A stretch of DNA of 64,000 bases from assembly GCF_003583405.1 (NCBI RefSeq), contig NZ_QXEC01000005.1:124001-188000 (forward strand), given 5' to 3'. The position numbers were made by a program, and so were the translations under genes. Source of the stretch: Micromonospora radicis. GTDB taxonomy: Bacteria > Actinomycetota > Actinomycetes > Mycobacteriales > Micromonosporaceae. This document shows positions 24,662 through 36,072 of the stretch, one piece after another. The notes below the pieces were generated by a model. The model had not been told where the DNA came from. It saw nothing but the letters and a program-made list of their open reading frames with translations, and ran no database searches. Numbering within the stretch: position 1 is the stretch's first letter; the number at the start of each line of letters is the position of its first letter.

Positions 24662-24797
24662 TCCGCCGACTACCCGCCCGGGCAGCGGTCATTCACCTAC
24701 CGGCGGTGACTGTGGAGTTGGACGACCGGGCACCGGGGCCACTTCACCCGACGGGACAGCTACCTGCATGGATACCGCCAAGATAGCAGTACGTCGA

Positions 24798-24827
24798 TTG
24801 ACAAAGTTCATGATCCCAACTTATTGT
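24798..24827 (+). promoter_or_regulatory. Candidate promoter for the GH5 cellulase
   Basis: TTGACA (24798-24803, perfect -35) is separated by 18 bp from TATTGT (24822-24827), in a locally AT-rich part of the 245-bp divergent region. The predicted leader is about 70 nt. I do not see a CebR-type TGGGAGCGCTCCCA operator. Confidence 0.6.
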
Positions 24828-24906
24828 GCGAGCCGGCCGGACGTTTCCGGTTCCCCGGCGGCGCCCGGCCAGCCACCCGTCGACACCACACCACACGAGG
24901 AGCACC

Positions 24907-27006
24907 ATGGCCGGGCTGAGCGGCACCCTAAGACGGACACGATGGCGGTTGGGCCTGGTCGGCGGCGGCATCGCCGCGCTGCTGGCCGGGGTCGGCCTGA
25001 TCGGCGCCGGCCCCGCCAACGCGGCGGCCGGCTGCCGGGTGGTCTACTCCGCGCCCAGCCAGTGGCCGGGCGGCTTCACCGCGAACGTGGACGTGACCAA
25101 CCTCGGCGACCCGCTCAACGGCTGGCGGCTGACCTGGACGTTCCCCTCCGGGCAGCGGGTCACCCAGGCGTGGAACGCCAACGTCACCTCGTCGGGCAAC
25201 GACGTCACCGCCACCAACGTCGGCTACAACGCGGCGCTGGGCACCAACCAGACGGTCTCCTTCGGGTTCAACGGCTCGTGGTCCGGCAGCAACCCGGCAC
25301 CGACCTCGTTCACGCTCAACGGGACGGTCTGCACCGGCAGCGTCGGCCCGACCACTCCGCCCCCCACCACCCCACCGCCCACCACGCCACCGCCGACCAG
25401 CCCACCGCCGGCCGGTGACGCGATGGCCTACGTGGCCGCGATGCAGCCCGGCTGGAACCTCGGCAACACCTTCGACGCCGTCGGCGCCGACGAGACCGCC
25501 TGGGGCAACCCGCGCGTCACCCAGGCCCAGCTGGACGCCATCCGGGCCCAGGGCTTCAACAGCATCCGGATCCCAGTGACCTGGAGCAACCGGCACGGCC
25601 CGGCCCCGTCGTACACCATCGACCCGGCCTGGCTGAACCGGATCAAGGAAGTCGTCGGCTGGGCGCTGGACGACGGCTTCTACGTGATGATCAACCTGCA
25701 TCACGACTCGTGGCAGTGGATCCACGAGATGCCGACCAACCGGACCACCGTGCTCAACCGCTACAACGCGCTCTGGACCCAGATCGCCGCGGCGTTCCGG
25801 GACGCCTCACCCCGCCTGCACTTCGAGAGCGTCAACGAACCGCAGTTCGCCAACAGCTCCGGGGACGCCCAGAACGCCCAGCTGCTGCACGAACTCAACG
25901 TCAACTTCCACCGGATCGTCCGCGCCTCCGGCGGCGCCAACGCCACCCGGATGCTGGTCCTGCCGACCCTGCACACCTCCTCCGAGCAGGCCCGGATCAA
26001 CGAACTGACCACGACGATCAACCAGCTCAACGACCGCAACCTGATCGCCACCGTGCACTTCTACGGCTACTGGCCGTTCAGCGTGAACGTCGCCGGCGGC
26101 ACCCGCTTCGACGCCACCACCCAGCAGGACCTCGTCGACTCCTTCGACCGGGTGTACAACGCCTTCGTCACCCGGGGCATCCCGGTCGTCATCGGCGAGT
26201 ACGGGCTGCTCGGCTTCGACCGGCACACCGGCACCATCCAGCAGGGCGAGAAGCTGAAGTTCTTCGAGTACTTCGGCTACTACGCCCGCCACCGACAGCT
26301 CACCACCCAGCTCTGGGACAACGGCCAACACTTCAACCGGACCACCTTCGGCTGGCGCGACACGGAGCTGATCAACCAGATCAAGTCGAGCTGGACGACC
26401 CGCTCCGGCACCGCCTCGGCCGACCAGGTGTACGTGCCGCGTACCGGCACGATCACCGCCAAGTCGCTGACCCTCAACCTCAACGGCACCACCTTCTCGG
26501 GGTTGCGACAGGGCAGCACCGAACTGGTCCGGGGCACCGACTACACCGTCTCCGGCAACCAGCTGACGCTGACCGCCAGCGCGTTGACCCGGCTGGTGGG
26601 CAACCGGGCGTACGGCGTCAACGCCACCCTGCAGGCCCGGTTCTCGGCCGGCGTGCCCTGGCGGATCGACGTGATCAGCCACGACCCGCCGGTGTTGTCC
26701 AACGCCACCGGATCCACCGCCTCCTTCGCCATCGGAACCCAGTTCCGCGGTGACCAGCTCGCCACCATGGAGGCGAGGTACGCCGACGGCAGCAACGCCG
26801 GTCCGCACGACTGGACCTCGTACAAGGAGTTCGACGTCACCTTCGCCCCCGACTACACCGGCAACCGGATCACGCTGACCGACACCTTCTTCGGCGAGGT
26901 ACGCGACGGCGCCCCGGTCACCCTCACCTTCCACTTCTGGAGTGGTGCCCAGGTGACCTACCGCGTCACCCGCTCCGGCGGCAGCGTCACCGGTGTGACC
27001 GGCTGA
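24907..27006 (+). CDS. Secreted modular cellulase: CBM2 - GH5 - X2 (Ig-like) - CBM46
   Basis: 699 residues, an extracellular beta-1,4-glucanase. Signal peptide to about residue 39 (GPANA). CBM2 at about 43-142, bounded by Cys43 and Cys142 with surface Trp residues. A Pro/Thr linker of repeated TTPPP follows to about 170. The GH5 catalytic domain runs from about 171 to 500, with acid/base Glu311 in ESVNEPQF and nucleophile Glu431 in VIGEYGLLG. The X2 Ig-like module is at about 505-590 (VRGTDYTVSGNQLTL), and the C-terminal CBM46-like module is at about 591-695. The GH5-X2-CBM46 order is that of Bacillus Cel5B-type GH5_4 enzymes, which act on cellulose and xyloglucan. ATG 24907 follows GAGGAG. 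Confidence 0.93.
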   Translation: MAGLSGTLRRTRWRLGLVGGGIAALLAGVGLIGAGPANAAAGCRVVYSAPSQWPGGFTANVDVTNLGDPLNGWRLTWTFPSGQRVTQAWNANVTSSGNDVTATNVGYNAALGTNQTVSFGFNGSWSGSNPAPTSFTLNGTVCTGSVGPTTPPPTTPPPTTPPPTSPPPAGDAMAYVAAMQPGWNLGNTFDAVGADETAWGNPRVTQAQLDAIRAQGFNSIRIPVTWSNRHGPAPSYTIDPAWLNRIKEVVGWALDDGFYVMINLHHDSWQWIHEMPTNRTTVLNRYNALWTQIAAAFRDASPRLHFESVNEPQFANSSGDAQNAQLLHELNVNFHRIVRASGGANATRMLVLPTLHTSSEQARINELTTTINQLNDRNLIATVHFYGYWPFSVNVAGGTRFDATTQQDLVDSFDRVYNAFVTRGIPVVIGEYGLLGFDRHTGTIQQGEKLKFFEYFGYYARHRQLTTQLWDNGQHFNRTTFGWRDTELINQIKSSWTTRSGTASADQVYVPRTGTITAKSLTLNLNGTTFSGLRQGSTELVRGTDYTVSGNQLTLTASALTRLVGNRAYGVNATLQARFSAGVPWRIDVISHDPPVLSNATGSTASFAIGTQFRGDQLATMEARYADGSNAGPHDWTSYKEFDVTFAPDYTGNRITLTDTFFGEVRDGAPVTLTFHFWSGAQVTYRVTRSGGSVTGVTG

Positions 27007-27013
27007 CCCATCC

Positions 27014-27049
27014 GGGCGCCACCGACCGCGTCGGCGGCCGGTGGCGCCC
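27014..27049 (+). terminator. Hairpin after the cellulase gene
   Basis: An 11-bp perfect inverted repeat (27014-27024 with 27039-27049) and 14-nt loop begin 8 bp past the cellulase stop and precede the next gene at 27068. No U-tract; called from position and stem strength. Confidence 0.6.
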
Positions 27050-27067
27050 GCCGGTCATGATTGATTC

Positions 27068-27448
27068 ATGATCCGATTCGTACTGAACGTGCTCTGGCTC
27101 ATCTTCGGCGGCGGGCTCGTACTGGCGGTCGGCTACGGCATCGCGGCCCTGATCTGCTTCGTCCTGGTCGTCACCATCCCGTTCGGGGTGGCGTCGCTGC
27201 GGCTGGCCTCGTACTCGCTGTGGCCCTTCGGCCGCACCCTGGTGCCCAAGCCCGGCGTCGGCGTCGCCTCCGGCGTGGCCAACGTCATCTGGGTGGTGCT
27301 GGCCGGCTGGTGGCTCGCCCTGTCGCACATCGTCGCCGGCGTCAGCCTCTGCCTCACCATCATCGGCATCCCGTTCGGCGTGGCCAACTTCAAGCTCGTG
27401 CCGGCCGCGATCTGGCCGCTCGGCCAGGAGGTGGTCCCGGCGCCGTAG
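27068..27448 (+). CDS. YccF domain-containing membrane protein
   Basis: 126 residues, two tandem YccF (DUF307) units. The first reads LNVLWLIFGGG, then IPFGVASLRLASYSLWPFGR. The second repeats VANVIWVVLAGWWLALSHIVAGV and IGIPFGVANFKLVPAAIWPLG. Four hydrophobic segments are expected, with the IPFG-x-A-x(2-3)-L-x(5)-WP-x-G signature repeated. Inner-membrane protein of unknown biochemical role. It follows the cellulase terminator closely. Confidence 0.9.
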   Translation: MIRFVLNVLWLIFGGGLVLAVGYGIAALICFVLVVTIPFGVASLRLASYSLWPFGRTLVPKPGVGVASGVANVIWVVLAGWWLALSHIVAGVSLCLTIIGIPFGVANFKLVPAAIWPLGQEVVPAP

Positions 27449-27549
27449 CCCCGGCACCGCCGCGCGCCCGCGTCAAAGCCAGGCGGGCCGGGATCGGCAG
27501 CACCACCCACCGGACGTTTGACCGGCGCGCACCGGGTACCGAGAACGAC

Positions 27550-28973
27550 GTGCGCAGCGAACCGGAACCGAGCCGGCCCGCCGCCGGGAGCACCCCGCCC
27601 GGTGGCGCGGTGCTCGTACCGCCGGGCGGTGGGGTGCCGACGCCGCCACGGCGGGTCCACTGGGCGGGCGCGGTGGCGGCGCTCGGCTGCCGGCCGTTCC
27701 GGGCCTTCTGGGTCGGCGCGGTCTGCGCCAGCACCGCCACCTGGATGCTCAACCTGACCGTGCCGCTGCTGCTCTACCAGGCCACCGGGCGGGCACTGTG
27801 GGCCGGACTGGGGGCGTTCGCCCAGTTCGTACCAGCGATGCTCGGCTCACCGGTCGGCGGCGTACTGGCCGACCGGCTCCCCCGCCGGGGCGTACTGGCC
27901 GCCACCCAACTGGTCGCGCTCGTCGTGGCCGTGGTGCTGGCGCTGGTCAGTCGCGCCGGCACCACGGCACCCCTGGCGCTGCTGGCGCTGGTGGCCGCGG
28001 CCGGCGCGGCCAACGGGGTGCAGACTCCGGCCTGGCAGAGCCTGATCCCCCAACTGGTACCGGCCCGGCACCTGCTCAACGCGATCGCCCTGAACGCGAT
28101 GCAGGCCAACCTGGCCCGCGCGCTGGGACCGGTGCTGGCCACCGCGGTACTGGTCCGCTTCGGCGCCACCGCGGCCTTCCTGGTCGCCGCCGGGGCCAAC
28201 GTCCTGATGCTGCTCGCCCTCGTACTGGTCCGGCCCCGCCCGACCGGCGCCCGCGCGCCCGGGGAGTCGATGCTCGCCCGGCTGCGCGCCGGCATCCGGC
28301 ACACCCGCCGGGTACCGGGCTGCTGATGGCGGTGGTACTGGCCGGCTGCGTCTCCTTCGTCGGTACGCCGATCGTGCAGCTCGCCGCCGTCTTCGCCACC
28401 GACGTCTACCAGGCCGGCACCGGGGGCGCCGGCCTGCTCGCCTCGGGACTCGGCGTCGGCACCGTGCTGGGCGCCATCCTGCTCAGCGTCTACGGCCCGA
28501 CCCGGCGACGCGCCACGGTGGCGGGGGTGGCGCTGGCCGTACACGGTTTCGCGACGCTCGCCCTGGCCGCCGCGCCGACGCTCTGGACCGGCCTCGCCGC
28601 GGTGATCGTGCTCGGGATCAGTTACCTGGCGGTGCTCTCCACGGCGAACGTGACGGTGCAGGTGCTGGCACCCGACGCGCTGCGCGGCCGGGTCGCCTCG
28701 CTGTACTGGATGGCGTTCGCCGGCGGCTACCCCGCCGGTGCGCTGGTGCAGGGGTGGCTGGCCGACCTGATCGGGGTGCGCTGGGCGGTCGCGCTGACCG
28801 GGGTGGCGCTGAGCCTGGTGGTGGCCTGGTTGCGCCGCCGCCGACTGCTCGACGCCCTCGACGGCCCAGCCCGACCGGACAGCCCAGCCCGACCGGACAG
28901 TCCGGGCAGACCAGACGGCCCAGGCGGACCAGACGGTCCGGGCGGACCGGACGGTCCGGGCGCCGTCCGCTGA
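27550..28973 (+). pseudogene. MFS transporter interrupted by a single-base frameshift
   Basis: A major facilitator transporter split into two frames. The first frame (GTG 27550 to TGA 28324-28326, 258 aa) carries transmembrane segments 1-6 (VGAVCASTATWMLNLTVPL, GSPVGGVLADRLPRRGV, the MFS loop motif). The second frame (28326 to 28973) continues as LLMAVVLAGCVSFVGTP with segments 7-12. One base appears missing within CCGGGCTGCTGATG at about 28318-28328, joining RVPG to LLMAVV. The break produces an overlapping TGATG, so an ATG at 28326 could restart translation and yield a two-piece protein. The family resembles EntS/NreB-type exporters. The C-terminus is an 18-bp tandem repeat tail. Sequencing error, pseudogene and split gene are all possible. 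Confidence 0.75.
28867..28956. repeat. 18-bp tandem repeat (5 copies) at the end of the MFS gene
   Basis: Five diverged 18-bp units (28867, 28885, 28903, 28921, 28939) encode repeated PDSP/PDGPGG-type hexapeptides as a disordered tail. The unit keeps the frame, so copy number can vary without disrupting translation. Confidence 0.85.
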
Positions 28974-29039: not shown

Positions 29040-29735
29040 TCGGCGTTCCGGGGCGCTGCGGGACGCCTCACCCTGGACGTCCAGCCGCACTTCGAGGTGG
29101 TCCGCCGCACCTGGTGTGCGCCGCTGGACTGGACGCTCGAACACCACGACGAGATGCAGCAGCAGCACCGCAACCTCGACTTCTACTGGTACCCGCGCAG
29201 CAACCTGACCCAGGTACGCGCGCTGGACGACCACCGTGACCCGCCGCCACCGGTCTGGACCGGCCCGATCCGGGAACGGGAGACCGGCCCGCTGCACCAC
29301 AAGCTGCCGCAGGACCGCGACCTGCGCTTCGACGAGATCGAGTACATGCTGCCCAGCGAGGCGTTCGAGGAGTGCTTCGCCGAGGTGCGTCGACGCATCC
29401 TGGACCGCCACCGGGTGACGGTGGCCTGGCGGCTGCTGGTGCGTACCGTCGCCGCCGACGACAACTACCTGAGCAACGCCAACGGCCGGGCGACCACCAC
29501 CATCGCCTGCCTGCACAACGCCGGGCTGCCGCACGAGGAGTACTTCGCCGACATGGAGTCGGTCTTCCGGGACTTCGGCGGTCGCCCGCACTGGGGCAAG
29601 AAGCACACGCTGACCGCGAAGGAGCTGCGCGAGCTGTACCCCGACTGGGACACCTTCGCGCGGATCCGCCGCCGGCTCGACCCCGACGGGGTGCTGCTCA
29701 CGCCGGACCTGGCCCGCCTGCTGGAGGAGAGCTGA
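29040..29735 (+). pseudogene. 5'-truncated sugar-1,4-lactone oxidase (ALO C-terminal domain only)
   Basis: Similarity starts at about 29040 (SAFRGAAGRLTLDV) and runs through LDWTLEHHDEMQQQHRNLDF, VAWRLLVRTVAADDNYLS and the diagnostic RPHWGKKHTL to the stop at 29735, i.e. the D-arabinono-/L-gulono-lactone oxidase C-terminal domain. The whole N-terminal FAD-binding domain (about 200 residues, with the flavin site) is absent, and the transporter gene ends only about 65 bp upstream. The first usable start is a GTG at 29097, giving 212 residues without FAD-binding capacity. It is therefore probably non-functional. Its stop overlaps the ATG of the ASRT-like gene (TGATG). Confidence 0.8.
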
Positions 29736-30207: not shown

Positions 30208-30936
30208 GTGCTGTCGCCCCGCGTCCTCGCCGGCGCCCTGCTCGCGCTGCACGCCGCGCCGGTGCTGACGTCGGTGCCGCCCCTTCGCCGGCACCTGTTT
30301 CCCGGGCTTTCCGGCATCGGCCGGCCCGGGCACCTGGCGCTGACCTTCGACGACGGGCCGGACCGCCGCTCCACGCCCCGCTTCCTGGGCCTGCTCGACC
30401 GGGCCGGGGTACGCGCCACCTTCTTCCTGCTCGGCGCGATGCTGGACCGGGATCCCGCCCTCGGCCGGGAGATCACCGCCGCCGGTCACGAGGTGGCCGT
30501 CCACGGCTGGGAGCACCGCAATCTGCTCTGCCGCCCACCCCACTCGACGTACGCCGACATCGCCCGTGCCCGCGACCGGGTCGCCGCGGAGACCGGGCGG
30601 GCACCCCGCTGGTACCGGCCCCCGTACGGGATCCTGACCACCGCGGCACTGGTGGCCTGCGCCCGGCTGGAGCTGCGGCCCCGGCTGTGGACCGCCTGGG
30701 GACGGGACTGGGAGGCGGGTGCCACGGGCCCGTCGGTCCGCCGCACCGTGCTGCGTACGCTGCGCCCCGGCGGCACCATCCTGCTGCACGACTCCGACCG
30801 GATGGCGGTCCCCGGCGCCTGGCGCTCCTCGTTGGCGGCGCTGCCGGCGCTGCTCGAGTGGGCCACCGAACGGCAGCTGACCGTCGGCCCACTCGGTGAA
30901 CACCACCCCTGCGACTCCCCGGATCTCGACTGGTGA
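30208..30936 (+). CDS. Polysaccharide deacetylase (NodB/CE4 family), first of trio
   Basis: 242 residues. CE4 motifs: TFDDGPD (catalytic base and first metal ligand), HGWEHRNL (H-x3-H metal ligands), RPPYG, and LLHDSD. It would remove acetyl groups from N-acetylhexosamine glycans. The N-terminus (MLSPRVLAGALLALHAAPV) is a hydrophobic anchor or signal without an obvious cleavage site, so membrane association is likely. GTG start 30208. The glycosyltransferase start overlaps its stop by 4 bp (GTGA), so the two are translationally coupled. Confidence 0.88.
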   Translation: MLSPRVLAGALLALHAAPVLTSVPPLRRHLFPGLSGIGRPGHLALTFDDGPDRRSTPRFLGLLDRAGVRATFFLLGAMLDRDPALGREITAAGHEVAVHGWEHRNLLCRPPHSTYADIARARDRVAAETGRAPRWYRPPYGILTTAALVACARLELRPRLWTAWGRDWEAGATGPSVRRTVLRTLRPGGTILLHDSDRMAVPGAWRSSLAALPALLEWATERQLTVGPLGEHHPCDSPDLDW

Positions 30937-32204
30937 CCGGGGCCCCTCCCGCACCGCAGGCGTGGGGCGGCCCCGCTTCCACCCGGCCGAGACCGCGCGC
31001 AGCGGGAGTGACCTGCGCCGCGACGGGTATGCGCGCCCGCGTGACGGAGTGCAGGCGGGCGGCGCAGTGGGCCGCTCCGGCAGACCCGGGGTGGGCGCCG
31101 GACCGACCCGGCGGCAGCCGAGCCGCCGGGCGGGTCGTGGTGGTCTCGGCCGACATCGGTGCCGGACACGACGCCGCGGCGGTCGAGCTGTCCGAACGCC
31201 TGGCCCGCCAGGGCCTCCAGGTGGACCAGCTGAACTTCCTGAGCCTGCTCCCCCGCCCCCTGGACAGCACCGTGCGGGAGGCCTACCGGGGGATGCTGCG
31301 CTGGCTGCCGTGGGGCTACCACGCGCTGTTCGATGCCACCGGCCGCACGCCGGGCTCGGCGCGACTGCTCCGCACCGCGTTGCGTCCGGTGGTGCGGCGC
31401 GTGCGCGACCGGCTGCCGCCGGACACCCGGGCCGTGGTCACCACCTTTCCGTTCGCCAACCAGTTGCTCGGGCCGATGCGCCGCGCCGGGCTGCTCGACG
31501 CGCCGCTGATCACCTACGTGACGGACTTCGCCGTACACCCGACCTGGATCTCCCCCGGCGTGGACCTGTACTGCGTCGTGCACGAACTCTCCCGCGAGCA
31601 GGCCGTGGCCGCCGGAGCGAACCCGGTACGGGTGGTCCGGCCGCTGGTCAACGCCCGCTTCGCCACACCGGTCGGGTTGAGCACCCGGGCCGCCCGGCAA
31701 CGCTTCGGGCTGCCGGAACGGTCCCGCCTCGCGTTGATCGTCGCCGGTTCCTGGGGCATGGGCGACGTGGCCCGGACCGCGACCGAGGTGCTGGTCACCG
31801 GCTGCGCCGTGCCGGTGGTGGTGTGCGGGCGCAACCGACGCCTGTTCCGGCGGCTGCGTCGCTTCCCCGGACACGTGCTCGGCTGGGTCGACGACATGCC
31901 CACCCTGATGCGGGCGGCGGACGTGGTGGTGGAGAACGCCGGCGGCCTGACCTGTCAGGAGGCCCTCGCCGCCGGCCGCCCCACGATCACCTACCGGCCG
32001 CTGCCCGGGCACGGCCGGGCCAACGCGGCGCTGTTGCGCCGCTCGGCGTTGACCAGCTACATCGCCTCCCCGCAGCGGTTACGGGCGGCGCTGACCACAC
32101 TCGTGGCCCACGGGGGCGACGCGACCGGCGACGACCCCCGGGCCGACATGGCGGCCGTGGTCGCCGAGGTGGCATCCCCGGTGAGGCGGGGATGGCCCGA
32201 CTGA
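30933..32204 (+). CDS. GT28-like glycosyltransferase (MurG/MGDG-synthase type)
   Basis: 423 residues. The N-terminal domain begins in earnest at VVVVSADIGAGHDAAAVEL (the G-x-GH motif of MGDG synthase/MurG-like enzymes). The acceptor domain contains TYVTDFAVHPTWISPGVDLY. The C-terminal nucleotide-sugar domain contains GSWGMGDVARTA, VLGWVDDMPTLMRAADVVV and ENAGGLTCQEALAAGRP. This type transfers a hexose or HexNAc to a lipid acceptor on the cytosolic membrane face. The first 60 residues are low-complexity and may not be translated; an ATG near 31029 is an alternative. It is sandwiched by overlaps between two polysaccharide deacetylases. Confidence 0.85.
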   Translation: MTGAPPAPQAWGGPASTRPRPRAAGVTCAATGMRARVTECRRAAQWAAPADPGWAPDRPGGSRAAGRVVVVSADIGAGHDAAAVELSERLARQGLQVDQLNFLSLLPRPLDSTVREAYRGMLRWLPWGYHALFDATGRTPGSARLLRTALRPVVRRVRDRLPPDTRAVVTTFPFANQLLGPMRRAGLLDAPLITYVTDFAVHPTWISPGVDLYCVVHELSREQAVAAGANPVRVVRPLVNARFATPVGLSTRAARQRFGLPERSRLALIVAGSWGMGDVARTATEVLVTGCAVPVVVCGRNRRLFRRLRRFPGHVLGWVDDMPTLMRAADVVVENAGGLTCQEALAAGRPTITYRPLPGHGRANAALLRRSALTSYIASPQRLRAALTTLVAHGGDATGDDPRADMAAVVAEVASPVRRGWPD

Positions 32205-32995
32205 GCCGCAGCCGGCGGCGGGATCTGCTCCGGGGCGGTGCGCTGGTCACCTTCGGGGCCGGACTCGGGGTGGTCGGCTTCGCCGAGGCGGCGGACGTGA
32301 CCGACCGGAAGCTGCCGATCCGGGGCGGAGCCGCCAGCGCGGTGCTGCCCGAGCGACCGGACCTGCTCGGCGGCGGACAGCTCGGGGTGCACTGGTGCAC
32401 CCGTACCGACCGCAAGCTCGTCGCGCTGACGTTCGACGACGGACCGGGGCCCCGCTGGACCCCGATGGTGCTGGACATCCTGCACCGGCACGGGGTACCG
32501 GCCACCTTCTTCATGGTCGGCGAGCGGGCCCGCCGGCACGCCGCGCTGGTGGCCGACCGGCTGGCCGGGCACGAGGTGGGCAACCACAGCTGGGCACACC
32601 ACGACCTGACCCGGATGTCGGCCGAGCAGGCGTACCAGGATCTGGCGCGTACCCATCGGGAACTGGTGGCGGTGACCGGTCAGCAGCCGACCCTGCTGCG
32701 CCCCCCGTACGGTCACCTGGCCGGCAGCACGACGGTGGCGGCGGTCCGGCTGGATTACCAGGTGGTGCTCTGGTCGCGGCAGATGCGGGAGGCGGAGTTC
32801 CCCGACGACCCCGACGGGCACGCCCGGCAGATCAGCGCCGACGTGCAGCCCGGCACCATCCTGCTCGCGCACGACGTGGGCGACCATCGCCGGCTGGTGT
32901 CGTTGCACGGGTTGCCGCAGATCATCGAGCGGCTACAGGCCGACGGATACCGGTTCGTCACGGTGTCGCAGCTGCTGGCGGTCCGGTCCAGCTGA
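32192..32995 (+). CDS. Polysaccharide deacetylase with TAT-type signal, third of trio
   Basis: 267 residues. The N-terminus SRRRDLLRGGALVTFGAGLG is a twin-arginine-like signal sequence, so export in folded form is likely. CE4 motifs: TFDDGPG, HSWAHHDL (H-S-x2-H), RPPYG and LLAHDVG, all intact. It would deacetylate an N-acetylated glycan outside the membrane. It overlaps the glycosyltransferase gene by 13 bp. Together with 30208 and 30933 it forms a deacetylase-transferase-deacetylase operon. It converges with the PAP2-kinase fusion with only 1 bp between stop codons. Confidence 0.88.
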   Translation: MARLSRSRRRDLLRGGALVTFGAGLGVVGFAEAADVTDRKLPIRGGAASAVLPERPDLLGGGQLGVHWCTRTDRKLVALTFDDGPGPRWTPMVLDILHRHGVPATFFMVGERARRHAALVADRLAGHEVGNHSWAHHDLTRMSAEQAYQDLARTHRELVAVTGQQPTLLRPPYGHLAGSTTVAAVRLDYQVVLWSRQMREAEFPDDPDGHARQISADVQPGTILLAHDVGDHRRLVSLHGLPQIIERLQADGYRFVTVSQLLAVRSS

Positions 32996-32996
32996 G

Positions 32997-35342
32997 TCAG
33001 ACCAACTCCCGCCGGGCCAGCATCCGCAGCGCGACGTAGCCGACCGGGGCGGGCAGCCAGAACGTCGCGAACCGGTAGACCAGCACGCCGGCGACCGCGG
33101 TGTCCACGGGTACGCCGTAGAGCAGCAGCCCGGACACCAGGGCCGCCTCGGTGGCGCCCAGCCCGCCGGGGGTGGGCGCGGCGGAGGCCACCCCCTCGCC
33201 GACCACACACACCAGGATGACCGGCGGCAACAGGGCCAGGCTGATCGGCTGACCGACCGCCAGCAGCCCGAAGTACAGGCTCGACCCGTACGCCAGGGTG
33301 AGTGCCACCGCCGCCGCGAGCAGCCGGGACAGCCGGTGCCGGCGGGGCAGCGCGCGCAGCGTGCCAAGGCTCTGCCGGGCCACCGTCCGGCCCCGGTGCC
33401 GCAGCCGCGGCAGGGCGAGCAGCGCCGCGCCGGCCAGCAGCACCGCCAGCACGCCGAGCAGCAGCGGCAGCGCCCGGCCCAGCACGGCGTGTTCGAGCGT
33501 ACGGACCGGCTGCCGCGCGAACGGCAGCAGCACGGGCAGCAGCAACGCGACCGACACCACGCCCGCAGCTCGGGAGATCGCCACCGCGGTCGCCGACTCG
33601 GCGGTGCCGAAGCCCTTCTGGTGCAGGTAGCGCAGGTTCAACGCGGCACCACCGACGCTGCCCGGTGCCAACCGGTTGGCGAACGACCCGGCCACCTGCA
33701 TCAGGGTGACCTCGCCCAACGGCACCCGGTTGGCGGTGGACAGCCGCAGGACGACCGCGCTGAGCAGGTAGGTGGCGGCCGAGCCGAGCAGCGTCGCGGC
33801 GAGAGCCGGCGGATGCGCGTGCAACATCAGCCGCAGCGCGGTACGTACCTCACCGAGCTGCGGCAGCAGCACGTGCACCAGCAGGCCGAGCACGAGCAGC
33901 AGCAGGAGACCACGCGGGGTGATCCGCACCACCCGGGCCAGTCGTCGTTCCCGCTGCGGGCAGCGGCGCAGGATCTGCGCCCGCAACTGCTCCAGCAGCT
34001 CGGGGCGGCGCCGCAGCAGGTTCCGGCCGGCTCGGGAGAGCACCGGCCGCTGCAGGTACGGCAGGCTGCCGGCGACCTGGTCGACGCCGAGTTCGGCCAT
34101 CGCGACGTCGACCACCGTCGCCGGATCCACCCGGCCGGCGAGGGTGACGAGCAGTTCGACGACGTCCCGGTCCCGTTGGTCGGCCGGCGCGTCGTCGAGC
34201 CCGAACCCCAGGTCGACCAGGTGGGCGCCGCCACCGCCGACCAGGATGTTGGCCGCCCGCAGGTCGCGGTGCGCGATGCCGGCCCGGTGCAGCAACGCCA
34301 CCTGCCGGCACACGTCGGCCACCGCGGCCACCGGCAGCGGCCCGACGGGGTGGTCCCAGGCGACCGCGTCCACGAACTCCTGCACCAGCACGGCGTCGCC
34401 GCCGGGCAGGGTGGCGGTGGTGACGACCGCCGGAACCCGGACGCCGGCCCGCTCGGCCAGCAGCGTCAGACACGCCTCGTGTTCGCTCTGCTGCTTGGCA
34501 CTGAGGTAGGGCGGCTCGTCGGCGACGCGCCGGTAGCGCAGCCGCCGGTACAGCTTGTATGCCCAGTCCGCGTCGCGCTGCTGACCGCCGGTCACCTTGA
34601 CGAACAGCCGCCGCCGGTCGGTGGTGACCACCTGCCAGGGCCACGACCCACGGGCGTCGCCGGTCACCGGCGTCAGCTCCACCACCTCGAAGCCGCGGTG
34701 CCGCAGTGCCCGACGCAGCGCGGCAGCGGAGCGCTGCGGCCCGACCTCGCCGACGACCAGCCGGGTGAGGCACACCGCGAGCCAGCCGACCAGGAACCCG
34801 CCGACGACGTCCACGGGCAGGTGCGCGCCGACGTGTATCCGCGCCACCGCGACCAGGACGACGACCAGCCAGAGCAGGCGCCGCCAACGGACACCGCCCG
34901 CCCGGGCGGCCACCAGGGCCAACGCGGTGGCGACCGCGACGTGCCCGGAGGGATAGCCCAGCGCGCCGGTGACCGTGTCGTGCAGGGCCACGTCGGCCAG
35001 CAGGGCCGCCGGCCGCTGCCGGGCCACCGCGACCTTGTTGACGATCGCCAGCCAGTAGGCCAGGTTGCCGGCCAGCAGCAGATCCCGGGCGAGCGCGGGC
35101 CGCCGCAGCAGGGCGGCGAGCAGGGCCGCGCCGAAGACCGTGAGGTACGAGCCGACCTGCATGATCACGACCAGTACCGGTGTCAGCCCGGCCGGCGCGC
35201 GGTTGAGCAGGGTGAACACGTCCCGTTCCCAGGCCGCGACCGGATACCTGCGCACCAGCAGGCTCGCCACGACCACCAGGACGGCCGAGCCGGCCAGGCT
35301 GACCAGCAGCGCCGGTGACGGTCGATGTGTCCGGGATGCCAC
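32997..35342 (-). CDS. PAP2 phosphatase - protein-kinase-like - LPG-synthase membrane domain fusion
   Basis: 781 residues in three modules. (1) A six-helix PAP2 lipid-phosphate phosphatase with the complete K-x6-RP (Lys103), PSGH (131-134) and R-x5-H-x3-D (Arg168, His174, Asp178) motifs. (2) A soluble kinase-like domain at about 215-465 with VK at Lys249, a Glu-bearing helix, HRDLRAAN (358-365) and DLG (377-379), i.e. all catalytic elements of a RIO/ABC1-like fold. (3) A C-terminal LPG_synthase_TM/UPF0104 domain (about 475-781) with GSFANRLAPGSVGGAALNLRY and SAAPTPGGLGATEAALV. A GTG at 35342 with AGGAGG only 3 nt upstream is the best start. It probably handles polyprenyl or lipid phosphates and lipid flipping. 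Confidence 0.87.
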   Translation of the reverse strand: MASRTHRPSPALLVSLAGSAVLVVVASLLVRRYPVAAWERDVFTLLNRAPAGLTPVLVVIMQVGSYLTVFGAALLAALLRRPALARDLLLAGNLAYWLAIVNKVAVARQRPAALLADVALHDTVTGALGYPSGHVAVATALALVAARAGGVRWRRLLWLVVVLVAVARIHVGAHLPVDVVGGFLVGWLAVCLTRLVVGEVGPQRSAAALRRALRHRGFEVVELTPVTGDARGSWPWQVVTTDRRRLFVKVTGGQQRDADWAYKLYRRLRYRRVADEPPYLSAKQQSEHEACLTLLAERAGVRVPAVVTTATLPGGDAVLVQEFVDAVAWDHPVGPLPVAAVADVCRQVALLHRAGIAHRDLRAANILVGGGGAHLVDLGFGLDDAPADQRDRDVVELLVTLAGRVDPATVVDVAMAELGVDQVAGSLPYLQRPVLSRAGRNLLRRRPELLEQLRAQILRRCPQRERRLARVVRITPRGLLLLLVLGLLVHVLLPQLGEVRTALRLMLHAHPPALAATLLGSAATYLLSAVVLRLSTANRVPLGEVTLMQVAGSFANRLAPGSVGGAALNLRYLHQKGFGTAESATAVAISRAAGVVSVALLLPVLLPFARQPVRTLEHAVLGRALPLLLGVLAVLLAGAALLALPRLRHRGRTVARQSLGTLRALPRRHRLSRLLAAAVALTLAYGSSLYFGLLAVGQPISLALLPPVILVCVVGEGVASAAPTPGGLGATEAALVSGLLLYGVPVDTAVAGVLVYRFATFWLPAPVGYVALRMLARRELV

Positions 35343-35457
35343 GGTCCTCCTGTCGGTTTCGAACCTACGGCCTCGTCGCGGCTGCTTCGGTCGTTTCCGC
35401 TGCTCCGATCGCCCGGATCCCGGCCGGTGCGGCGGCCACAATCAGGAGGTGGACCGG

Positions 35458-36072
35458 GTGTTGGCCGTACTCGCCGCGCTGCCGCCGGTGGCGGTGTTGG
35501 CGCTGGTGTTCCTGCTGCCGGCGCTGGAGTCCTCGACGTTGCTGGGGTTGTTCGTGCCCGGCGAGACCGCCGTCCTGGTCGGCGGCGTGGTGGCGCACCT
35601 CGGCGGGCTACCGCTGTGGGCGGTGATCGTCGTCGCGGCGGCCGGAGCATGCCTCGGCGACCAGGTCGGCTACCTGCTCGGCCGGCGCTACGGCCCGGCG
35701 GTGCTGGCTCGCGCGCCGGCGGTGGCCCGGCGGCATCTGGACCTGGACCGGGCCCGGCGGCTGGTGGCGACCCGGGGCGCGGCGGCGGTGGTGATCGGCC
35801 GGTGGGTGGCGGTGCTGCGGGTGCTGGTGCCGCTCTTCTCCGGCGCCAGCGGGATGTCCCGGTCCACCTTCGGCTGGGCGAACGTGGCCGGTGGGTCGGT
35901 GTGGGCGACGACGGTGGTCCTGTTGGGCTACCTCGGCTCGGCGTCGTACCGCTATCTGGAGCACGAGTTGGGCATCGGCACCCACGTCCTGCTCGCCCTG
36001 CTCGTGGTCGGGGCGCTGCTGGCGCTCTGGCGGCACCACCGTCGGCGGCGACCCACCGGACCGGCCCGCTGA
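35458..36072 (+). CDS. DedA-family membrane protein
   Basis: 204 residues. Motifs: LLPALESSTLLGLFVPGETAV (E-x5-F-x-PGE), GACLGDQVGYLLGRRYG, and the C-terminal amphipathic GRWVAVLRVLVPLFSGASGM (RF/W-x3-R...G). This is the DedA/VTT family, recently linked to recycling of undecaprenyl phosphate and phospholipid scrambling. The GTG at 35458 has AGGAGG at the optimal 8 nt; a GTG at 35449 lies within that ribosome site and is rejected. It is divergently transcribed from the PAP2-kinase-flippase gene, with the two starts 115 bp apart, suggesting shared control. Confidence 0.9.
   Translation: MLAVLAALPPVAVLALVFLLPALESSTLLGLFVPGETAVLVGGVVAHLGGLPLWAVIVVAAAGACLGDQVGYLLGRRYGPAVLARAPAVARRHLDLDRARRLVATRGAAAVVIGRWVAVLRVLVPLFSGASGMSRSTFGWANVAGGSVWATTVVLLGYLGSASYRYLEHELGIGTHVLLALLVVGALLALWRHHRRRRPTGPAR

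Follow-up and report, generated by a model that had tools for sequence, protein, structure and literature searches.

The window analysed here is a stretch of 64,000 bp from the genome of Micromonospora radicis (contig NZ_QXEC01000005.1, positions 124,001 to 188,000). It carries at 30208-36072 a glycosyltransferase gene (GT) flanked by two deacetylase genes (DAC1 and DAC2), followed by a convergent gene for a phosphatase-kinase-flippase fusion protein (FUS) and a divergent gene for a DedA-family protein. By analogy with hexSDF of Clostridioides difficile and gpgSDF of Pseudomonas aeruginosa, we consider it probable, with moderate confidence, that GT and DAC1 make a hexosaminyl lipid and that a protein with an LPG_synthase_TM domain (LPG_TM) flips it. 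This reading is supported by the protein families, intact catalytic motifs, the conserved coupling of GT and DAC1, and the occurrence, in part of the loci compared, of flippase-like genes from two families close to GT-DAC1. The five genes of the window are:

30208-30936, plus strand: DAC1, CE4 N-deacetylase with an N-terminal hydrophobic segment; Polysacc_deac_1 (PF01522), E-value 6.8e-30.
30933-32204 (open reading frame), plus strand: GT, glycosyltransferase of the monogalactosyldiacylglycerol (MGDG)-synthase/UgtP family; MGDG_synth 2.3e-12, Glyco_tran_28_C 2.5e-5.
32201-32995, or from ATG 32192, plus strand: DAC2, second CE4 deacetylase; Polysacc_deac_1 8.8e-36.
32997-35342, minus strand: FUS, fusion of PAP2 phosphatase, Bud32/Kdo-like kinase and LPG_synthase_TM flippase; Pfam and NCBIfam matches.
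35449-36072, plus strand, GTG start: DedA-family (VTT domain) membrane protein, divergent from FUS; PF09335 2.6e-18.

A Pfam profile search confirmed the families, places and layout that a sequence-only reading had given for these five genes; both matches of GT were above the Pfam cut-off. Candidate starts of GT are GTG 30933 (overlapping DAC1 by 4 bp), ATG 31029, GTG 31137 and others. The claimed convergence of the trio with FUS at a distance of 1 bp was also found, the stop of DAC2 lying at 32995 and the FUS open reading frame extending over 32997-35441 on the minus strand; GTG 35342 is probably the start of FUS, which gives 781 residues as in near relatives.

By family and by predicted fold, GT is nearer to MGDG synthase and UgtP than to MurG. 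Its match to MGDG_synth (PF06925) scored 47.8 bits (cut-off, 25), and a profile of 18 GT relatives matched the solved chains of a UgtP-type enzyme (9wde) at 6.8e-39 and of plant MGD1 (4wyi) at 5.8e-30, with far weaker matches to MurG (best, 3.8e-5). The structure predicted from 30 sequences (pLDDT 86.6, pTM 0.85) aligned best, among the 1000 chains supplied to the aligner, with MGD1 4x1t (Z 27.0, root-mean-square deviation 3.4 over 290 residues), and next with MurG 3s2u (Z 24.0, 3.3 over 286 residues). GT stayed below the NCBIfam murG equivalog cut-off (25.4 of 250.25 bits) and below the cut-offs of the GT4-type Pfam models Glyco_trans_1_4 (21.9 of 27 bits) and Glycos_transf_1 (19.1 of 26.4 bits).

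The residues D48, D49, H99, H103, R137, P138, P139, H194 and D195 of DAC1, which we take to be CE4 motif residues, are kept in all 71 of the 71 GT-adjacent DAC1 proteins compared. A tree was built from 50 CE4 proteins, with loci above L086 thinned to every third number. In it, the 39 GT-adjacent DAC1 proteins form one clade (100/100), apart from the five other CE4 proteins of the window's genome, and DAC2 groups (100/100) with the CE4 protein adjoining FUS and DedA in genome G001; because of a long-branch warning among the other CE4 proteins, only these two groupings were used. By its placement in this tree, DAC2 belongs to a separate, FUS-linked CE4 lineage. DAC1 and DAC2 scored below every NCBIfam PgdA/PdaA/NodB equivalog cut-off among the models that they matched (for example, DAC1 with 114.6 of 240 bits for NodB, and DAC2 with 142.5 of 237.4 bits for PdaB). 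A hydrophobic segment was found in 57 of 73 proteins (71 DAC1 and two DAC2), with no excess of charge on its N-terminal side; for the longest starts of the 71 DAC1 proteins, the charge was higher on the N-terminal side in 19, equal in 22, and higher on the C-terminal side in 30. Read from ATG 32192, DAC2 begins with MARLSRSRRRDLLRGG... and contains the leader SRRRDLL, recognised by eye, which we take to be of Tat type; DAC2 is probably exported through this Tat-like leader. The arrangement of two deacetylases around one transferase, singled out earlier as unusual, is indeed so, but DAC2 is of the other lineage and goes with FUS.

For comparison of gene neighbourhoods, one genome per species was scanned, and 80 named loci (the best 80 of at least 243 confirmed) were used together with the window, 81 loci in all, with gene overlaps and orders taken from our own gene caller. 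A DAC1-type CE4 gene adjoins GT in 71 of the 81 loci, on the same strand in 70 (58 after GT, 12 before), and 39 of these 70 pairs overlap by 4 bp; an adjoining CE4 gene is absent from 10 loci, one of them at a contig edge. Genes for CE4 proteins make up 75 of the 471 genes within three places of GT, versus one of the 613 genes six or more places away (far genes), and thus stand beside GT more often than by chance. The distance matrices of GT and DAC1 are correlated, with r 0.92 for the 16 pairs of L066-L083 and the window and r 0.90 for the 55 pairs of L084-L145 (0 of 1000 permutations as high in either set); shared descent of the host genomes contributes to these correlations.

The GT-DAC1 system is accessory and patchy in its distribution. 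GT was found at E < 1e-30 in 24 of 61 relatives, including 21 of 37 genomes of the genus, of which 15 hold a copy at least 56% identical and the remainder hold more distant types; genome G005 has three copies, and G013 and G010 have two each. Across the phylum, the GT profile at 1e-20 matched 23 of 246 genomes. At locus L044, GT was not called as a gene, yet tblastn finds GT and DAC1 there. At L230 (G011), a 150-residue piece of GT, whose match contains one stop, lies beside an S11 carboxypeptidase gene and points to loss of the system (the family names S11 and, below, BlaI and M56/M48 are from Pfam matches of one representative each). The distant-type GT at L061-L065 is part of proteins of about 810-940 residues, near DMT-like and SDR genes. 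At L048, L049, L051 and L053, GT-DAC1 is flanked on both sides by genes of the S11 cluster, and at L228 and L229 (G009, G033) two S11 carboxypeptidase genes flank an LPG_TM gene in the same way, as if GT-DAC1 and LPG_TM had been swapped into the same S11 slot.

Candidate flippases of two families are encoded near GT: LPG_TM proteins within three genes of GT in six of the 81 loci, and DMT-like proteins in 13 (11 of these among the 19 loci L066-L083 and window), each versus 0 of the 613 far genes. In M. mirobrigensis (L082), genes for S11, PAP2-LPG, GT, DAC1 and DMT follow each other on one strand, with 4-bp overlaps of GT with DAC1 and of DAC1 with DMT; the DAC1 of L082 is of a separate DAC1 lineage. 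In G010 (L045), LPG, GT and DAC1 also share one strand, the contig ending within the LPG gene so that the gene order is seen only up to there, and in two Streptomyces loci (L105, L110) the LPG gene lies two places from GT on the opposite strand. The DMT label is weak in Pfam (EamA 0.051 and 0.00064, below cut-off). RefSeq lists for S. fungicidicus a 'DMT family transporter' (219 bits to the DMT model) flanked by a polysaccharide deacetylase on one side and a 'galactosyldiacylglycerol synthase' on the other, and GT, CE4 and DMT-like genes are lined up in other actinobacterial lineages (L244 and L247; DMT 44 and 73 bits). LPG_TM and DMT-like proteins are considered a candidate swap of flippase families.

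In FUS of the window, the triple fusion claimed earlier was confirmed, with LPG_synthase_TM (1.2e-28) and PAP2 (7.2e-16) over the Pfam cut-off and the kinase part only below it (Pkinase 20.9 of 31.7 bits; Kdo 20.3 of 21.3 bits); the kinase part also resembles Bud32, below the NCBIfam cut-off. The NCBIfam flippase-like model TIGR00374 was matched with 47.4 bits (cut-off, 43.2). FUS shares the LPG_synthase_TM flippase region with MprF, but it fell short of the MprF model (45.6 of 600 bits) and matched that region only (profile 47-294 of 841). The nearest solved chains by sequence were LpxE 6ebu (1.6e-10) for the PAP2 part and PknB (4e-6) for the kinase part, and a structure prediction from a five-sequence alignment was unusable (pLDDT 45.6, pTM 0.30). 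The kinase motifs FVK, HRDLRAAN and DLG and the PAP2 motifs KVAVARQRP, GYPSGH and ARIHVGAHLPVD appear intact in the window protein. A comparison of 27 full-length FUS proteins showed seemingly intact motifs in the Micromonospora group and in a few further proteins (L203-L206), and seemingly degenerate ones in many. Full-length relatives at L211-L214 and elsewhere have the three domains fused, and their PAP2 and kinase catalytic motifs look lost. For DedA proteins, the part of PMC10127716 available to us describes recycling of undecaprenyl phosphate and mentions three major subfamilies. By family, the PAP2, kinase and DedA proteins may be assigned to carrier-lipid handling.

The exact five-gene order is present in the window and in M. 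zingiberis (G003, L066), two of the 37 genus genomes. G005 keeps GT-DAC2-FUS-DedA with no DAC1 at the site and with an extra gene between DAC2 and FUS. In G001, a match to window 24791-27452 is followed, 56 bases on, by a match to window 32201-35994 (DAC2-FUS-DedA); the DAC1-GT stretch is absent from this site and was found on another contig, and hence DAC1-GT and DAC2-FUS-DedA are separable modules. Full-length FUS is spread over the phylum, often away from GT. The link of FUS and DedA to GT-DAC1 is weaker than the coupling of GT to DAC1, yet it is not mere chance, because LPG genes also lie near GT-DAC1 in L082, G010 and the two Streptomyces loci.

A gene for a BlaI-type repressor lies within three genes of GT in 34 of the 81 loci, all of them within the 62 loci L084-L145, many of which are from Streptomyces, and M56/M48-type membrane peptidases are encoded within the same distance in 31 loci; RefSeq names M56 and BlaI also for a Streptomyces plasmid copy. 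On a 639-kb plasmid of Streptomyces sp. NBC_01454 (L234), BlaI/M56 faces genes for GT, CE4, GT4 and undecaprenyl-diphosphate phosphatase. A TAC[AT]..[AT]GTA dyad is present in 22 of 24 divergent BlaI-GT gaps (after shuffling of single bases, 0.3 of the 24 on average and 2 at most); the word CTACTACA is likewise present in 22 of the 24. The 81 loci (1.54 Mb) contain 27 distinct sites of a stricter motif, spread over 26 of them: 20 sites lie in BlaI-GT gaps, three upstream of DedA (DedA genes being 16 of 1455), two upstream of GT without BlaI, one inside a called GT start, and one upstream of another BlaI; the motif loci are related and these counts are not independent. Six genomes, totalling about 62 Mb, each contain a single exact copy of the 16-mer CTACTACANNTTGTAG; in four of them it precedes GT, and in the other two it precedes a DedA gene at a distance of two or three places from GT. 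The reversed control pattern has one occurrence; the looser CTACANNTTGTAG has eight distinct sites in the six genomes versus 37 matches of its reversed control. These six genomes were selected for having the motif at their loci, and so the result is informative only in showing no additional sites. This BlaI-type operator-like motif, a putative operator, would tie GT-DAC1 to DedA outside Micromonospora; the strict Streptomyces pattern has 0 matches in the window, and BlaI control is therefore not claimed for the window. The hexSDF operon of C. difficile is under control of a two-component system; response regulators and histidine kinases are not enriched near GT in the 81 loci (12 and 11 of 471 genes near; 18 and 16 of 613 far).

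The known systems have been described as follows, in the parts of the papers available to us. HexS is annotated as MGDG synthase, HexD as polysaccharide deacetylase and HexF as MprF-like flippase; on deletion of hexSDF, aminohexosyl-hexosyldiradylglycerol is lost and resistance to daptomycin and bacitracin is lowered, the acetylated form accumulates without HexD, and HexSD without HexF still yields the lipid (PMC10128005). In a B. subtilis ugtP mutant, hexSDF makes the same lipid only when ugtA is co-expressed (PMC11898633). The product of gpgSDF in P. aeruginosa is glucosaminyl-phosphatidylglycerol, and the acetylated intermediate accumulates without the deacetylase (PMC12713373). Both products were proven by lipidomics (PMC10128005, PMC12713373).

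The window resembles hexSDF by family and proposed role, in that an MGDG-synthase-type GT and a polysaccharide deacetylase are encoded together and a candidate MprF-like flippase is encoded close to them, and its GT adjoins a CE4 deacetylase with intact catalytic residues. In contrast to hexSDF, the LPG_TM flippase of the window is convergent, outside the operon, and fused to PAP2 and kinase parts (it is on the same strand in L082 and L045), a second, Tat-type deacetylase is present, and in some actinobacterial loci a DMT-like protein is encoded instead. With gpgSDF the window shares the same three roles (transferase, deacetylase, flippase), whereas the enzymes differ: a GT4 (cd03814) and a COG3233 deacetylase in gpgSDF (by a table of PMC12713373), MGDG_synth/GT28 and PF01522 in the window, whose deacetylases match only PF01522 in Pfam, COG3233 itself not having been searched. 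GT is like UgtP and MGD1 in family and fold, but it scores under the UgtP equivalog cut-off and usually (71/81 loci) lies beside a deacetylase, which suggests N-acetylhexosamine as its sugar. A C. difficile GT whose neighbours are recR and dnaX, and whose gene table shows no deacetylase, was rejected as HexS. L231 and H10-H19 are C. difficile records labelled as plasmids with a UgtP-type GT; the one examined carries dnaX and recR and may therefore be a mislabelled chromosomal piece.

For the formation of the proposed lipid, the cytoplasmic GT would attach an N-acetylhexosamine (probably GlcNAc, with UDP-GlcNAc as the donor) to a membrane lipid. DAC1, its dedicated CE4 partner, would then deacetylate the sugar, giving a lipid whose amino sugar bears a positive charge. 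Transport of this lipid to the outer leaflet would be the task of the LPG_synthase_TM domain of FUS, as supposed from HexF and GpgF, for which flipping is still unproven; in the window lineage the flippase is most likely FUS, and elsewhere this might be done by a DMT-like protein. DAC2, probably exported by the Tat route, may complete the removal of acetyl groups on the outer side or have the wall as its substrate. Judged by their families, the PAP2 part and DedA would probably release and recycle the lipid phosphate carrier, and such recycling would help against drugs that trap this carrier.

Several observations weigh against this reading. GT is below the curated UgtP-type NCBIfam cut-offs (104 of 500 and 58.7 of 557 bits) and is hence regarded as a member of the UgtP family, not as the UgtP enzyme itself. 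An LPG or DMT gene lies within three genes of GT in only 18 of the 81 loci, so most loci have no recognised flippase nearby, and in a wider phylum set (20 stretches fetched; GT recognised in 14, which were counted, and six dropped) a CE4 gene lies within three genes of GT in only eight of 14 loci. With the models used, neither GT nor CE4 was found near FUS in 20 fetched neighbourhoods outside the genus, one of which has a DedA gene (L205); within the genus, GT is present in 10 of the 12 genomes that have FUS/LPG, versus 21 of 37 overall (p 0.026, uncorrected for kinship). Among the papers listed by the literature searches, which covered few subscription journals, no actinobacterial version, product or phenotype was recognised. 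The closest solved CE4 structures include many peptidoglycan or chitin deacetylases, and BlaI/M56 and, in some Micromonospora, S11 carboxypeptidases beside GT-DAC1 fit a role in peptidoglycan as well.

Modification of peptidoglycan is the main biochemical rival, and we regard it as unlikely: a MurG-like GT and PgdA-like DAC1 and DAC2 would alter glycan strands or lipid II, with S11 and BlaI/M56 in the same wall response. It is kept alive by these neighbours, with S11 D,D-carboxypeptidase genes within three genes of GT in four of the 19 loci L066-L083 and window and BlaI near GT in 34 of the remaining 62, and the peptidoglycan GlcNAc deacetylases among the nearest solved CE4 proteins are in line with it. 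The family and fold of GT argue against it (MGDG_synth 47.8 bits for a cut-off of 25; UgtP-type 104 versus murG 25.4 bits, both under their cut-offs of 500 and 250; Z 27.0 for MGD1 above 24.0 for MurG), as do the scores of DAC1 and DAC2 under all PgdA/PdaA equivalog cut-offs matched and the LPG_TM and DMT proteins, which are not peptidoglycan enzymes. A polyprenyl-linked sugar donor, following the logic of the Arn pathway, appears rather improbable: GT would load undecaprenyl phosphate with N-acetylhexosamine, DAC1 would deacetylate it, the flippase would export it, a further transferase would decorate a wall polymer, and PAP2 and DedA would recycle the carrier. DedA and PAP2 within three genes of GT in 10 and nine of the 81 loci (3/613 and 2/613 far), the annotated undecaprenyl-diphosphate phosphatase and GT4 after GT-CE4 on the Streptomyces plasmid, and the DMT-like proteins beside GT are consistent with such a donor; however, UgtP/MGDG enzymes use diacylglycerol lipids, and DedA and PAP2 genes serve in general envelope maintenance too.

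It is possible, though we would not expect it, that only GT-DAC1 is a system and that the group of DAC2, FUS and DedA adjoins it by chance and has a job of its own, a view that is compatible with a hexosaminyl lipid made by GT and DAC1 and whose probability overlaps with that of the latter. The joining of DAC2-FUS-DedA almost directly to the homologue of window 24791-27452 in G001, with DAC1-GT on another contig, speaks for it, as do full-length FUS proteins across the phylum with no GT nearby and the exact order in only 2/37 genus genomes; LPG or PAP2+LPG directly before GT-DAC1 on the same strand (G010, L045; L082) and, in two loci of Streptomyces, LPG genes at a distance of two places from GT speak against it. 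Of the amino-sugar glycolipid system that the sequence-only reading had proposed for all five genes, the GT/deacetylase/flippase core is supported by gene order in Actinomycetota and by hexSDF and gpgSDF. The part of FUS and DedA is less well supported (order in 2/37 genomes, FUS often away from GT, G001), and is favoured by PAP2-LPG in L082, the Streptomyces LPG genes, and the operator-like motif upstream of GT, which also precedes DedA in three loci.

Elsewhere in the window, an MFS-like gene, named by eye, at 27673-28973 is split over two frames (27673-28326 and 28326-28973), which indicates a broken gene or a sequencing error, and at 29097-29735 a D-arabinono-1,4-lactone oxidase is represented by its C-terminal part alone (positions 114-253 of the 258 in the profile), probably a remnant.

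Amino-sugar lipid systems of this kind are already known from hexSDF and gpgSDF, to which the window adds extra parts; what goes beyond the sequence-only reading is the assignment of published counterparts, the division into separable modules, a possible exchange between flippase families, and a BlaI-type motif that would join GT-DAC1 to DedA. If the proposed reading is true, the lipid modification of C. difficile (with daptomycin and bacitracin resistance) and of P. aeruginosa would extend to antibiotic-producing actinomycetes, and candidate genes would be named for amino-sugar lipids of actinomycetes. As a more tentative and rather doubtful extension, the genes may represent a widespread, stress-switched cationic-glycolipid system of actinomycetes, in which BlaI and the M56 receptor of Streptomyces would control GT-DAC1 and DedA via one operator, flippases of the unrelated LPG_TM and DMT families would be interchangeable, and the phosphatase-kinase-flippase fusion of Micromonospora would prepare and export the lipid, the two deacetylases acting on opposite sides of the membrane, one inside and the other outside. 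Directly testable predictions of the proposed reading concern the operator, the exchange of flippases and what a kinase fused to a flippase does. Glucosamine-containing phospholipids of unknown structure (GluNU) are mentioned for Saccharomonospora in the part of PMC4585250 available to us. Such a system, if true, would provide intrinsic resistance against antibiotics that bind carrier lipids, and it might explain these old glucosamine-containing phospholipids of actinomycetes, their link to the genes described here being a guess.

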